Virus record (IMG/VR): IMGVR_UViG_3300043399_000371 | Coordinates: 36,285 to 100,284 of that record | Length of the DNA: 64,000 bases | Strand: one strand, 5' to 3' | From: a virus | In this document: one piece after another, positions 58,752 to 62,834 of the stretch | Numbering within the stretch: position 1 is the first letter of the stretch | Layout of the letters: every line of letters begins with the position of its first letter | Program-made: the position numbers and the translations under genes | Notes under the pieces: model-generated | The model's input: the letters and a program-made list of their open reading frames with translations, nothing else | The model's database searches: none | Told to the model about the DNA's origin: nothing

Positions 58752-59681
58752 TTAAACCATTGGTGGAACAGGAATACCAGTCCATCCTCTAGGGGCTGGA
58801 TGTGTGTGGCAATCATACATTGAGGTGTTTACTAAGTCTGTCATTAATATTGCGCCCATAGTACCAAAGGTTCCTAATGGCGCATTAACAACACCAGAAG
58901 AAGAAACAGCAGCAAGAGCATATACAACACCGGGAACAGCAAAAGGTATGCCAACAGAAAGACCACCAAATTGAGAAACGAAACCAAGAGGTCCAGCACT
59001 CATACCAGTACCAGCATCTACTCTGGTTGCTGAAGTCATTTTATCTGCAACGATTTCTCCAGATGTGAATAGATCTCCAAATAGATGTAGATAACCACCT
59101 GTGTTTATATTTAATGTTCCTGTTACAGATGTTGGATTTACAGTAACACGCATATCATCGTTTGATATTATGTTAGTTTCTTTTTCTACAGTTTGTGTAA
59201 AATTACCCTCAACAACTAGATCGTAATCACCCTTAACTCTTTGTGTTAGATTTCCTTCGATGTTGATATTGACATCACCAGTAATTGTCATGTTACATTT
59301 ACCACCAACAATTATGTGTTTGTCTTTTACTGTAATATCGTATCCATCACCTTGTATTTTATGAACAACAGTACCATCTGGATGCATCTCAATAAATGAT
59401 TCGATTCTGTGTTGAATCCTCACCCTTTCTCTTCCGGGTGTATCATCCATTTCAAATGTATGTCCAGATTCGGATTGTGTTATCTTGTTGTATGGGTATT
59501 TTGGTTTTGTGTCTTCGTTTGCTTTTGATTCTGGCTCGATACCAAAACTTCCAAGTTCTTTTGTTATATCAGATGTAGCAGTACCAGATGAAACATCATC
59601 TTGTAATGTCTGAACTTCGGAATCGAGTTCTACTGAAACCTGTGGTTCCAGATCAGCTATTTGTGTAAATGTTTCTGCCAT
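58752..59681 (-). CDS. gp5: Spike part of split gp5 (beta-helix with HxH tip)
   Basis: A 309-residue protein. Residues about 62-115 (YPYNKITQSESGHTFEMDDT, PGRERVRIQH) align with T4 gp5 after its internal cleavage site (YPYVHTMETESGH...DDTPGQERYR). Then an octad beta-helix follows: TGDVNINIEGNLTQRVKGDY and VVEGNFTQTVE. The C-terminus ends DCHTHPAPRGWTG, with H292-T-H294, an HxH motif like the iron-binding tips of P2-type spikes. A hydrophobic glycine/alanine segment precedes it. This would be the needle. It starts 1 nt after the N-terminal-half gene. Confidence 0.8.
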   Translation of the reverse strand: MAETFTQIADLEPQVSVELDSEVQTLQDDVSSGTATSDITKELGSFGIEPESKANEDTKPKYPYNKITQSESGHTFEMDDTPGRERVRIQHRIESFIEMHPDGTVVHKIQGDGYDITVKDKHIIVGGKCNMTITGDVNINIEGNLTQRVKGDYDLVVEGNFTQTVEKETNIISNDDMRVTVNPTSVTGTLNINTGGYLHLFGDLFTSGEIVADKMTSATRVDAGTGMSAGPLGFVSQFGGLSVGIPFAVPGVVYALAAVSSSGVVNAPLGTFGTMGAILMTDLVNTSMYDCHTHPAPRGWTGIPVPPMV

Positions 59682-59682
59682 A

Positions 59683-60855
59683 TTAAAGTTCCGGTGTAGG
59701 TTCTACTGGTGTGTTTGGATCGGTATTCATGTTAAATTGAGAAGATGTGAATTGTGTTGCTGCTGCACTCACTTCTGATGATATGTATTTTCCAATATCA
59801 CTAGTCACAGTATTCAAATCTTCTATACTGGATATGTCACTCAATCCGTTCACAATATTTTCGGCAGCAGGAGTTAATGCTGAATTTGCATTCAATAGAT
59901 TAGATGCTGCATTAAATGTGTCGTTTATTACTTGACCAGTTGTTTGTATCTCTTGTTTTAGTTCTGTTAATGAAGGCAATCCATCTATACCAACAGCAGA
60001 AGAAATTAATTGTTTAATATCATTAAATACTTTTTTAATACAATTCAAAACAAATTTAATTAGTCTTGCTGGTAATGAAAGAATGAAAGATAAAATTGCT
60101 CTTAATAAATTGATTATATTAAATATTCTCTTTATCATGTCGGCAATAACTTTTATGTAATCTCTTATTCTTTTTAGTTCTGCTTGTATCCCCTGAAGAA
60201 TACTTATTGCTTGCGAAACTAGACCTGTTGGGTCAAAACCTAATGCTTTAATTAATGCTCTTATTGCTTGTCTTATCTTTTCAATTGCTTTTGCTAAAAA
60301 TGTATCCTTTGCGATTTTTGCATTTGCGATTGCTTTCACATCACAGGCATGGGATAGTGAACTATTTGTGTTATAAACACCAGTTCTTTCGACAATACCT
60401 CTTGAAAGGTTTGGATATGTTGCAGGTTTACCAGAAACCCTAGTATCAACATTTTCTTTTGGTTTTGGTCCTGCCTCAACCTGTGCTGCTGATAACCCAT
60501 CACCAACGAAGCCTTCATTCTTCTGCTGAACAAATGTTTTTCCCGCAACATTTACTGCCTGATCGATACCAGAAAAGACACCAACCACAACTGGAATTTG
60601 TGCAGCTTCACCGTCTTGGAAGAATCCCCAAACCCAATCTCCTTCACGCGGACCTGATGAAGTTTGGGCGCCTGTGGTTGGGTGCAATTGTTGTGCCCAA
60701 GGTAAAGCACTTGTTGGTACTAGTTCTTTTTCTTTTGGGTGGAGTCCTATGATACGAACACGAAGACAACCCATCTTCAATGGATCTATTCTATCTTCGA
60801 CGCATCCTACCCACCAGACAAAAGGTTTCTTGCCGTAAAAATCTTCACTTAACAT
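59683..60855 (-). CDS. gp5: N-terminal OB-fold part of split gp5, no lysozyme domain
   Basis: A 390-residue protein. Residues 10-100 (WWVGCVEDRIDPLKMGCLRV, RIIGLHP, EGDWVWGFFQDGE) match the OB-fold start of T4 gp5 (WFVGVVEDRMDPLKLGRVRV). The lysozyme domain that follows in T4 is absent: there is no E-x8-DxxxT-type catalytic core. Instead residues 178-290 are amphipathic and hydrophobic helices (IRQAIRALIKALG, IFNIINLLRAILSFILSLPARL). It is the hub base; the helices could be membrane-active or hold the gp27 ring. The downstream gene provides the beta-helix. Confidence 0.82.
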   Translation of the reverse strand: MLSEDFYGKKPFVWWVGCVEDRIDPLKMGCLRVRIIGLHPKEKELVPTSALPWAQQLHPTTGAQTSSGPREGDWVWGFFQDGEAAQIPVVVGVFSGIDQAVNVAGKTFVQQKNEGFVGDGLSAAQVEAGPKPKENVDTRVSGKPATYPNLSRGIVERTGVYNTNSSLSHACDVKAIANAKIAKDTFLAKAIEKIRQAIRALIKALGFDPTGLVSQAISILQGIQAELKRIRDYIKVIADMIKRIFNIINLLRAILSFILSLPARLIKFVLNCIKKVFNDIKQLISSAVGIDGLPSLTELKQEIQTTGQVINDTFNAASNLLNANSALTPAAENIVNGLSDISSIEDLNTVTSDIGKYISSEVSAAATQFTSSQFNMNTDPNTPVEPTPEL

Positions 60856-60856
60856 T

Positions 60857-62209
60857 TTATTTTTGCTTTATTGAGGAATCTGATGCTACTTCTATTAGAG
60901 TTTCGTGTCTGTCATATTTAATTGTATGACGAACACCTGTAATGATGTATCTTCCACTAAATTCAATATCTCTGCTATCTACGGAGACATCATTTTCATA
61001 ATTTGCACCAGTATATTTAGGGACATCAAGTTCAACCATAATGCCTGTATATAATGCAAAATTACCGGGCATTGTTAGCTGAAGTCTTTTCATAGCCAAA
61101 TTTCCAAAAAAGTGTTTTCTTTGGAAAACGTATTCATGTGTGTTATCATCCATCAATGCTAATTCTGGATTAAACTCTTTTACATATTCGCCTTCTTGTG
61201 TTGTTCTTGGATATGAAAACGGATATGTTGTTACTCTAGACTTTTTGAATTCTTCTGTTGGTAACATATCATTTTTTATTTCTGGTAATTTTTTGGTCAA
61301 TGGAATATTTGGGTATGGGTTCGCATGATGCTCTTTTCCAAGTTGATACAAGTTTGAAAACGTGAAAACATTTTCTTTGTATGTTCTTGTTAGTGTATCA
61401 AAACCAACAAATGTCCCACCATAAACACCACTCATTAGACTTTCTAGAACAGTAAATTGTGATACTATTTTCAGATCTCTTGCGCCAAAAAGTTCAGTAC
61501 CAAGCTTATTACCCTTCATATCTTTCCAGAAAAAGTTAATTTTATATGAGGTTGGGTAATCGAATAAACGTGATAATGATGCAAAACAATAACCATGTTT
61601 TATTTCAAAAAACACAAAATCTGGTTTTTTGTTTTGCCATATTGCTCGTCTTGCTATCCAGTCTATTCCTTGAAATGGTGTAAGATTTGGAATAACAATA
61701 TGGTGTATTCCAAGAGATTCGACCCAATATGGTTTGTATATTTTTGGACCATTCAGAGTATTCAATATTTTTTCAGCAATACTTGAATATGTCCCCTTGT
61801 AATACTTCTGTTCCTTTGTATTCTCGGAAAGCAAATGTTCTTCTGATGTGAAATGTAATGTGTATATCTGTGCAGTAGCAGATACGTTTGTTCTATTTTG
61901 TACTTTGTGTATTCTGAATCTCTTATCGAAACTTAGTTCTTCGATTTCTTCCTCTGCATTGACTTTTTTGATTTTTATGTGTATAAACTCATTACCATCA
62001 AGAGAAAGAGAATCTATCATTCCGAGACCGTCTCTTATCACTATATTACCAGACATACACGAAACGAACATATTATCGAATATGCTCAACTCTTCAAATA
62101 TAGAACTCACATCGTAAGAAAAGTCAGAACCATTTGGATATTTACCAATTATCTCTAACTTCTCAATAAAAAAATCTGTTGGGTTGACTGCTTGTTGTGA
62201 ATTACTCAT
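60857..62209 (-). CDS. gp27: Baseplate hub protein gp27-like
   Basis: A 450-residue protein from the ATG at 62209 (8-nt overlap with gp53). Its N-terminal part IVIRDGLGMIDSLSLDGNEF then IHIKIKK resembles T4 gp27 (LTMRDSLYGR...MDGNEIIQISV), and the order of hub strands is similar. It directly precedes the gp5 genes, as expected for the gp27-gp5 torus and spike. Similarity is remote, so the assignment rests on both sequence pattern and place. C-terminal FSGRYIITGVRHTIKYDRHE is typical of hub proteins. Confidence 0.7.
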   Translation of the reverse strand: MSNSQQAVNPTDFFIEKLEIIGKYPNGSDFSYDVSSIFEELSIFDNMFVSCMSGNIVIRDGLGMIDSLSLDGNEFIHIKIKKVNAEEEIEELSFDKRFRIHKVQNRTNVSATAQIYTLHFTSEEHLLSENTKEQKYYKGTYSSIAEKILNTLNGPKIYKPYWVESLGIHHIVIPNLTPFQGIDWIARRAIWQNKKPDFVFFEIKHGYCFASLSRLFDYPTSYKINFFWKDMKGNKLGTELFGARDLKIVSQFTVLESLMSGVYGGTFVGFDTLTRTYKENVFTFSNLYQLGKEHHANPYPNIPLTKKLPEIKNDMLPTEEFKKSRVTTYPFSYPRTTQEGEYVKEFNPELALMDDNTHEYVFQRKHFFGNLAMKRLQLTMPGNFALYTGIMVELDVPKYTGANYENDVSVDSRDIEFSGRYIITGVRHTIKYDRHETLIEVASDSSIKQK

Positions 62210-62834
62210 TAAAAATACTTTCAAATTGTGATTGTGCTATATCGAGAAATTGTAGTTTCAATACCTTAATATTTCTCCTACTCTCATTTATATCTCTTTC
62301 ATACTCAAAATAACTTTTAACTTTTTTGGTTGTTGTTTCTGTTATTGTGTTGCCATCTGGAAGTGTTATACTGTTTGTGTCATTTGTTAAAGCGTTGTAT
62401 GTTGCCTCATCTATCTGCAATTCTGTAACGATAGTTTTTGTTTGTATTTTTTGAGATATGACTTTATAATAGGAGTGTGTATTTGTTCTTGCCCACTCCA
62501 GACCATTTTTGTTTTCTAATAGACCTTCAGCAGAATATTTGTTTTTAACATATTCGTTAAATGTCCTTTCATCCAAAACCCAATCAAACAAAGGGTTCAC
62601 TATGTCATTCATTAACAGAATGATCCAATGCTTTTCAGATGATCCATAGAAACGATGTGCTAGCATTTCTGGAGTTTCGCCATCTTTTACGATATACTCA
62701 TAATAGGCAATAGAATTTTCTTTCAATTTTTCATCGAAAGAAAATCTAGAGGTTATTTTTGTTGCTATAACATTCGATTCCTTTTCCGAAAATCTATATT
62801 CGGTTAGGGGGAAGAAATTAAAATATTTTGCCAT
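62202..62834 (-). CDS. gp53: Baseplate wedge protein gp53
   Basis: A 210-residue protein (T4 196). FNFFPLTEYRFSEKESNVIA, then YIVKDGETPEMLAHRFYGSS, KHWIILLMNDIVNPLFDWVL and the C-terminal helix match gp53 (IKGSPRPEELANAIYGNPQLYWVLLMCNDNYDPYYGW). It locks wedges together around the hub. It overlaps the gp27-like start by 8 nt and follows gp48 by 2 nt. Confidence 0.9.
   Translation of the reverse strand: MAKYFNFFPLTEYRFSEKESNVIATKITSRFSFDEKLKENSIAYYEYIVKDGETPEMLAHRFYGSSEKHWIILLMNDIVNPLFDWVLDERTFNEYVKNKYSAEGLLENKNGLEWARTNTHSYYKVISQKIQTKTIVTELQIDEATYNALTNDTNSITLPDGNTITETTTKKVKSYFEYERDINESRRNIKVLKLQFLDIAQSQFESIFNE

Follow-up and report, generated by a model that had tools for sequence, protein, structure and literature searches.

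A T4 gp5-like protein divided between two genes, with a helical region in the place of the lysozyme, in uncultured phages

The gp5 protein of phage T4 is the textbook example of a cell-puncturing device, a single chain that is cut once and carries a lysozyme. Its needle is capped by a protein of the PAAR family. According to the accessible text of PMC3004832, the maturation cut lies between Ser351 and Ala352, and the C-terminal part, gp5C, trimerises the entire gp5 while still attached to it, before cutting; the mature product is (gp27-gp5*-gp5C)3.

Departures from this plan have been described. A "split T4 gp5" is in print for the rhizobial phages phiM9, vB_RleM_P10VF and Atu_ph04 (PMC6630229, accessible text), the only paper in which our literature search, whose reach left out most subscription papers, found it. 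Divergent gp5 clusters are reported in pelagiphages and cyanophages, and the accessible part of that report makes no mention of a split (PMC7029224). In other contractile systems, an HxH motif binds iron in the spikes of P2, phi92 and R2 pyocin (accessible text of PMC6116203 and PMC10715212). Our search found no description of a helical replacement, of a three-gene form, or of an alternation between HxH and PAAR on T4-type needles. The split of gp5 is already known in itself; the combination seen here is new.

We analyzed a stretch of 64,000 nucleotides (the window) from a virus record of 168,163 bases, which may itself be a fragment. On the minus strand, the window encodes in order a tail-tube-cap match (PHROG 230, baseplate), gp53, a hub-like protein, an OB-domain protein, a needle protein, a 255-aa protein, gp25 and a 682-aa ORF, which on its position can be read as standing in the place of gp6 (Table 1). 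The hub-like gene matches PHROG 350 ("tail protein", E 1.7e-69) and lies ahead of the OB gene in those loci where it is present; searching PDB with a profile built from 17 homologues gave no chain at E<=0.1. The 255-aa gene has no match in Pfam, PHROGs or PDB, and divergent counterparts (20-25% identity) occur right after the needle gene in the four loci inspected.

Table 1. Features of the gene pair and its surroundings, numbered from the first nucleotide of the window.
Feature	Position	Strand	Remark
Hub-like tail gene, 455-aa ORF	60857-62224	-	in the place of gp27; likely start ATG 62206
OB gene, upstream half, 390 aa	59683-60855	-	by position, T4 gp5*
OB domain	60556-60855	-	residues 1-100 of the upstream protein
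Conserved residues of the middle region	60034-60351	-	H169, C171, P262, C272
Helical region	59737-60300	-	residues 186-373 of the upstream protein, where T4 has the lysozyme
Lone base from OB-gene stop to needle-gene ATG	59682	-	junction TAA-T-ATG
Needle gene, downstream half, 309 aa	58752-59681	-	by position, T4 gp5C
gp5C-like base and start of the beta-helix	59172-59537	-	needle residues 49-170 (EPES, YPYN, SGH..DDTPG)
HxH motif	58800-58808	-	H292-T-H294; predicted iron-binding apex of the needle
Gene after the needle, 255 aa	57972-58739	-	possible further part

An earlier note on this DNA had claimed that gp5 is divided here between two genes, the upstream one having the T4 gp5 OB fold, and both statements are borne out. 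The OB gene aligns with residues 10-103 of T4 gp5 (42% over 95 columns, E 1e-19, BLASTP) and the needle gene with residues 384-548 (33% over 165 columns, E 1e-18), both E values being those of pairwise comparisons with one sequence. Family profiles also reach the T4 gp5 chain in PDB, at E 2.7e-19 for the OB family and E 2.2e-29 for 28 needles, the latter matching the chain of a phage KP1 variant (9f4a) at E 8.2e-33. The OB gene covers positions 14-111 of the PHROG 430 profile (E 6.9e-29) and the needle gene positions 327-454 (E 5.4e-39), so that the pair corresponds to the two ends of a single family profile, and neither gene matches the lysozyme stretch in between. The Pfam matches lie under the curated cut-offs (Gp5_OB, E 2.6e-4 and 21.7 bits for a cut-off of 25; Gp5_trimer_C, E 1.7e-4), and Gp5_trimer_C matches 27 of the 28 needle homologues at E<=1. 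The monomer models are weak overall (pLDDT 62.9 and 61.5); within them the OB domain mostly reaches 75-91, with a Foldseek match to 1k28_A at E 2.9e-8.

The single polypeptide cut at Ser351/Ala352 of T4 is thus absent here and replaced by two genes, 1 nt apart as first described. From the start of the chain to the EPxS motif there are 26 residues in T4 gp5C (EPVS) and 48 in the window needle (EPES), and the needle genes of 40 loci of the window clade start 7-45 residues ahead of this motif. The claim that the downstream gene begins at the sequence following the T4 cut is therefore accurate within some tens of residues, and does not hold to the residue. The gene boundary plausibly makes a T4-type maturation cut unnecessary. 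Nevertheless, the idea that the boundary simply does the job of the cleavage is too simple, because trimerisation of the single T4 chain through gp5C comes ahead of the cut. Separate chains lose this trimerisation through an attached gp5C, and trimerisation therefore needs another solution.

Scanning viral contigs with the needle gave 51 loci, which are not independent as they hold 40 distinct needle sequences. Both OB and needle are present in 47 of them, with 37 distinct needle sequences counted by class (9 + 20 + 8); L031, L035 and L052 have no OB part and L032 has only its far end. A scan with the OB-helix protein added one more locus, L059, which is cut off ahead of the needle. OB and needle lie on different ORFs in all 47 testable loci, so that the break seen in the window recurs in its relatives, and no joined frame occurs among them. 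Three layouts are found. The window type, with OB and helices on one ORF followed by the needle, accounts for 12 loci, and another 25 encode OB, helices and needle as three ORFs. A distant group of 10 loci has OB and Phage_lysozyme2 on one ORF, a middle gene of about 500 aa, and the needle (lysozyme checked in L048 and L053). In the three-piece form (L010, L017, L018, L021, L039, L042, L044 and others), the OB protein alone measures 89-204 aa and the helical protein 197-377 aa, in addition to the needle.

We also examined fifteen named phage records, a small share of the 1,520 and 1,880 records matching OB and needle, respectively. By profile, OB and needle share a single ORF in seven of them (T4, avDM4, LIMEstone1, HTVC008M, Mosig, P-TIM40 and ACG-2014b) and are on two ORFs in five (P-HM2, S-CREM2, S-B68, S-H34 and RHph_I1_18); no needle match was obtained for Syn9, S-CAM1 and AG-345-D19, which stand outside this score. 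Both domains occur together in 60 loci or records, from which a tree was built (46 unique rows, of which 45 were used and one, truncated, was omitted). Labelled with 38 split and 7 fused rows, it needs at least two changes; the data do not reject a split that arose only once (p-AU 0.196), and the deep nodes are unsure because of long branches. On the same tree the break between OB and helices needs at least two changes inside the window clade, and the presence of a hydrolase two.

The earlier note had further stated that the lysozyme is gone. None is detected in either protein: Pfam gave no lysozyme or other hydrolase domain in the OB or needle gene, 32 members of the OB-helix family showed none among the best 25 of 27 Pfam families, and the OB-plus-helix model had none among the Foldseek matches listed. 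However, this is not a plain absence, since about 190 residues of amphipathic helix fill the lysozyme's place in the upstream protein. Elsewhere, Phage_lysozyme is found in gp5 of T4 and avDM4 (PF00959, present in 0 of 9 viral contigs), a CHAP domain in LIMEstone1 gp5 and Phage_lysozyme2 in RHph_I1_18, and the OB genes of the other eight scored named phages gave no hydrolase match.

The split does not follow from the lysozyme loss, as relatives show in both directions. The L048-type loci and RHph_I1_18 are split and yet carry Phage_lysozyme2 on the OB gene, whereas HTVC008M and Mosig are unsplit and have no hydrolase match. Together with the separate change counts on the tree for the split and for hydrolase presence, this indicates that the split and the lysozyme loss are separate events. 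In the distant group, the gene of about 500 aa between OB-lysozyme and needle (L053:4132-5745, L048:4325-5833) has an Amidase_2 domain in L053; in L048 its only amidase match is a weak one in PHROGs (E 8e-4). The needle of RHph_I1_18 (L065:6254-8161) matches Peptidase_M15_3 near its C-terminus, under the cut-off (E 0.0011), and may itself carry a peptidoglycan enzyme.

These shifting hydrolases bear on a first alternative, namely that another part of the window phage's virion carries a cell-wall enzyme associated with the tail. The Amidase_2 gene between OB and needle in L053, the sub-threshold peptidase on the RHph_I1_18 needle and the CHAP domain of LIMEstone1 gp5 all speak for such relocation. 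On the other hand, five hydrolase families (PF00959, PF18013, PF01510, PF01464 and PF08291) have no match at E<=1 in the window's own record, which is possibly a fragment, and we regard this alternative as somewhat unlikely, though the strongest of those considered.

The helical region itself is predicted to form six long helices (residues 186-373, model pLDDT mostly 50-70). Its helical periodicity exceeds that of shuffled sequences, with z 4.9 for residues 185-300 and 4.2 for residues 300-375, compared to 1.6 for the T4 lysozyme domain, -0.3 for the hub and -1.2 for the needle. Among 23 aligned rows of at least 180 residues, H169 is kept in 22 and C171, P262 and C272 in all 23, and the end of the helical gene falls at a conserved site close to a proline (20/21 rows). 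The two invariant cysteines, about 100 residues apart, might form a disulphide or a metal site. The region stands between OB and needle in the 12 two-gene and the 25 three-gene loci, so that 25 of these 37 close loci encode it separately. Because it always lies there in the window clade and is often separate, it is the best candidate for replacing attached-chain trimerisation, as its position, composition and conservation suggest.

The middle regions of cyanophage gp5 also show helical periodicity (z 2.0 to 10.4), that of RHph_I1_18 none (0.0). The searches did not establish homology between the window region and these cyanophage regions: a profile search of all collected ORFs recovered the window lineage only, and hhalign gave 76% probability over 55 columns with 7% identity. 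When 50,697 phage records were searched by tblastn, residues 128-310 matched none of them at E<=0.01, and the BLAST match between the full-length protein and P-TIM40 (residues 5-303) is probably driven mostly by the OB domain. Nor did hhalign establish homology to the middle gene of the L048 type (probability 5.7%).

Alternatively, the gene split may merely substitute for the T4 maturation cleavage, the helices being a leftover spacer after lysozyme loss. The break is indeed close to the Ser351/Ala352 position, and in the lysozyme-bearing L048 type and RHph_I1_18 the gene boundary likewise falls between lysozyme and needle, which would fit a boundary that is itself functionally equivalent to cleavage. 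A spacer, however, would not be expected to keep two cysteines and a proline in every aligned row, nor to be encoded separately in 25 of the 37 close loci, which makes this explanation quite unlikely.

Even less probable, in our view, is that the helices are membrane-active or tape-measure-like and replace the lysozyme by acting at the inner membrane once the outer one has been pierced. They are amphipathic and basic, with a hydrophobic stretch at residues 244-262 (mean hydropathy 1.8), and residues 183-375 weakly match PHROG tape measure proteins (best E 7.3e-5). Nevertheless, the hydrophobic peak ranges from 0.62 to 1.99 among relatives and is thus inconsistent, and composition lets long helices match a large number of helical models. 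The needle, a beta protein, reaches 1.95, and since it scores as high, we dropped membrane insertion as a reading of hydropathy. Lastly, a chance ORF, or one gene cut in two by a sequencing or assembly frameshift, for which only the 1-nt spacing of the frames speaks, can be dismissed almost entirely given the equal break in 47/47 testable loci with their 37 distinct needles, the conserved end of the helical gene near its proline, and the needle starts confined to 7-45 residues before EPxS.

At the other end of the device, the needle carries an HxH motif, with H294 invariant and H292 kept in at least 90% of 28 needles. The motif lies in the last 50 residues in 36 of 40 window-clade loci and further in for L031; L038 and L040 have QxH and the needle of L047 is cut off, giving HxH in 37 of 39 assessable loci. 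We predict, by analogy with the P2 and phi92 spikes, that it forms an iron-binding apex. The Pfam GpV Apex family matches at the HxH of L043 (E 0.018) and in 2 of 28 needle members in all, each time under the cut-off and the window protein not among them. Foldseek relates the needle model to phi92 (3pqi, E 0.021) and R2 pyocin (4s37, E 0.026); the apex is modelled at pLDDT below 50, and the phi92 alignments (VIA-align) span model residues 61-127, without the HxH.

PAAR genes show the opposite distribution. They are found in 8 of 9 named phages (under the cut-off in P-HM2, not found in ACG-2014b), and the needles of all nine lack HxH. The six HxH records searched, the window's own and five window-clade contigs, gave no PAAR match; they may be fragments. 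Two contigs of the L048 type have neither. In the records searched, HxH tips and PAAR genes are thus mutually exclusive: 8 have PAAR without HxH, 6 HxH without PAAR, and 3 neither.

We consider it fairly probable that the window pair forms the central spike in a contractile tail of the T4 type, with a separate base and needle, and propose the following steps for it. The needle would trimerise alone, as T4 gp5C does, and its three HxH tails would bind one metal ion in a sharp, closed apex, so that no PAAR cap would be needed. Three OB domains would be seated in the hub. An adapter formed by the helical region, whether on the OB gene or on its own, would gather the three OB chains and grip the needle base, holding the two parts together without a covalent link. 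Base and needle being made as separate chains, freeing the needle would require no maturation protease. Upon contraction, the needle would pierce the outer membrane and drop off, opening the tube, with no lysozyme on the device. The adapter role is suggested by the position and composition of the helices. Counting against it, HTVC008M and Mosig join OB and needle without a long helical region, and RHph_I1_18 is split without a helical signal; against the reading of the tip, the L048-type loci lack both HxH and PAAR, so that a tip is not always recognisable.

Compared to T4 gp5/gp27, the window pair has a homologous OB domain and a homologous gp5C base and beta-helix, and the end product is likewise predicted to comprise nine chains. 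It differs in being encoded by two genes rather than one cleaved polypeptide, in having a helical region and no detected lysozyme domain, and in a needle that ends in HxH with no PAAR gene found, where T4 has one. The rhizobial phages, compared through RHph_I1_18, also have gp5 on two genes, but RHph_I1_18 has Phage_lysozyme2 on the OB gene, the weak M15 match on the needle and a 116-aa gene between OB and needle, and it shows no helical signal. The cyanophages P-HM2, S-CREM2, S-B68 and S-H34 share the separate needle and an OB gene without hydrolase match, and the P-HM2 record annotates two "gp5" genes; their OB genes are, however, much longer (812-928 aa), and their needles lack HxH, each record having a PAAR match. 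The Pelagibacter phages HTVC008M and Mosig also have a gp5 without hydrolase match, but as one fused ORF of 350 and 361 aa, respectively, with a PAAR gene and no HxH.

The P2 gpV, phi92 and R2 pyocin spikes resemble the window needle in the HxH close to the C-terminus of a trimeric beta-helix, and differ in that the window needle has a base of the T4 gp5C type and its OB domain on another gene; their HxH binds iron, and that of the window needle is predicted to do so. The phiCD508 needle is similarly reported to have no enzymatic domains and a hexahistidine apex, but lacks the beta-helix that the window needle has (PMC11948020, accessible text).

More broadly, and only tentatively, we suggest that a puncturing device of the T4 type, but modular and enzyme-free, is widespread in uncultured phages. 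It would consist of an OB socket, a helical adapter and a self-capped needle as distinct parts, encoded by three genes in many loci and held non-covalently; the adapter would make the OB trimer and hold the needle, both of which the one gp5 chain does in T4, HxH would replace the PAAR cap, and release would require neither protease nor lysozyme.

Natural versions of the device without the enzyme and the cut, and with a different tip, would reveal which of its features are dispensable. With them it can be tested which purpose the T4 cut has, releasing the needle or activating the lysozyme, and whether HxH apex and PAAR cap can stand in for each other.
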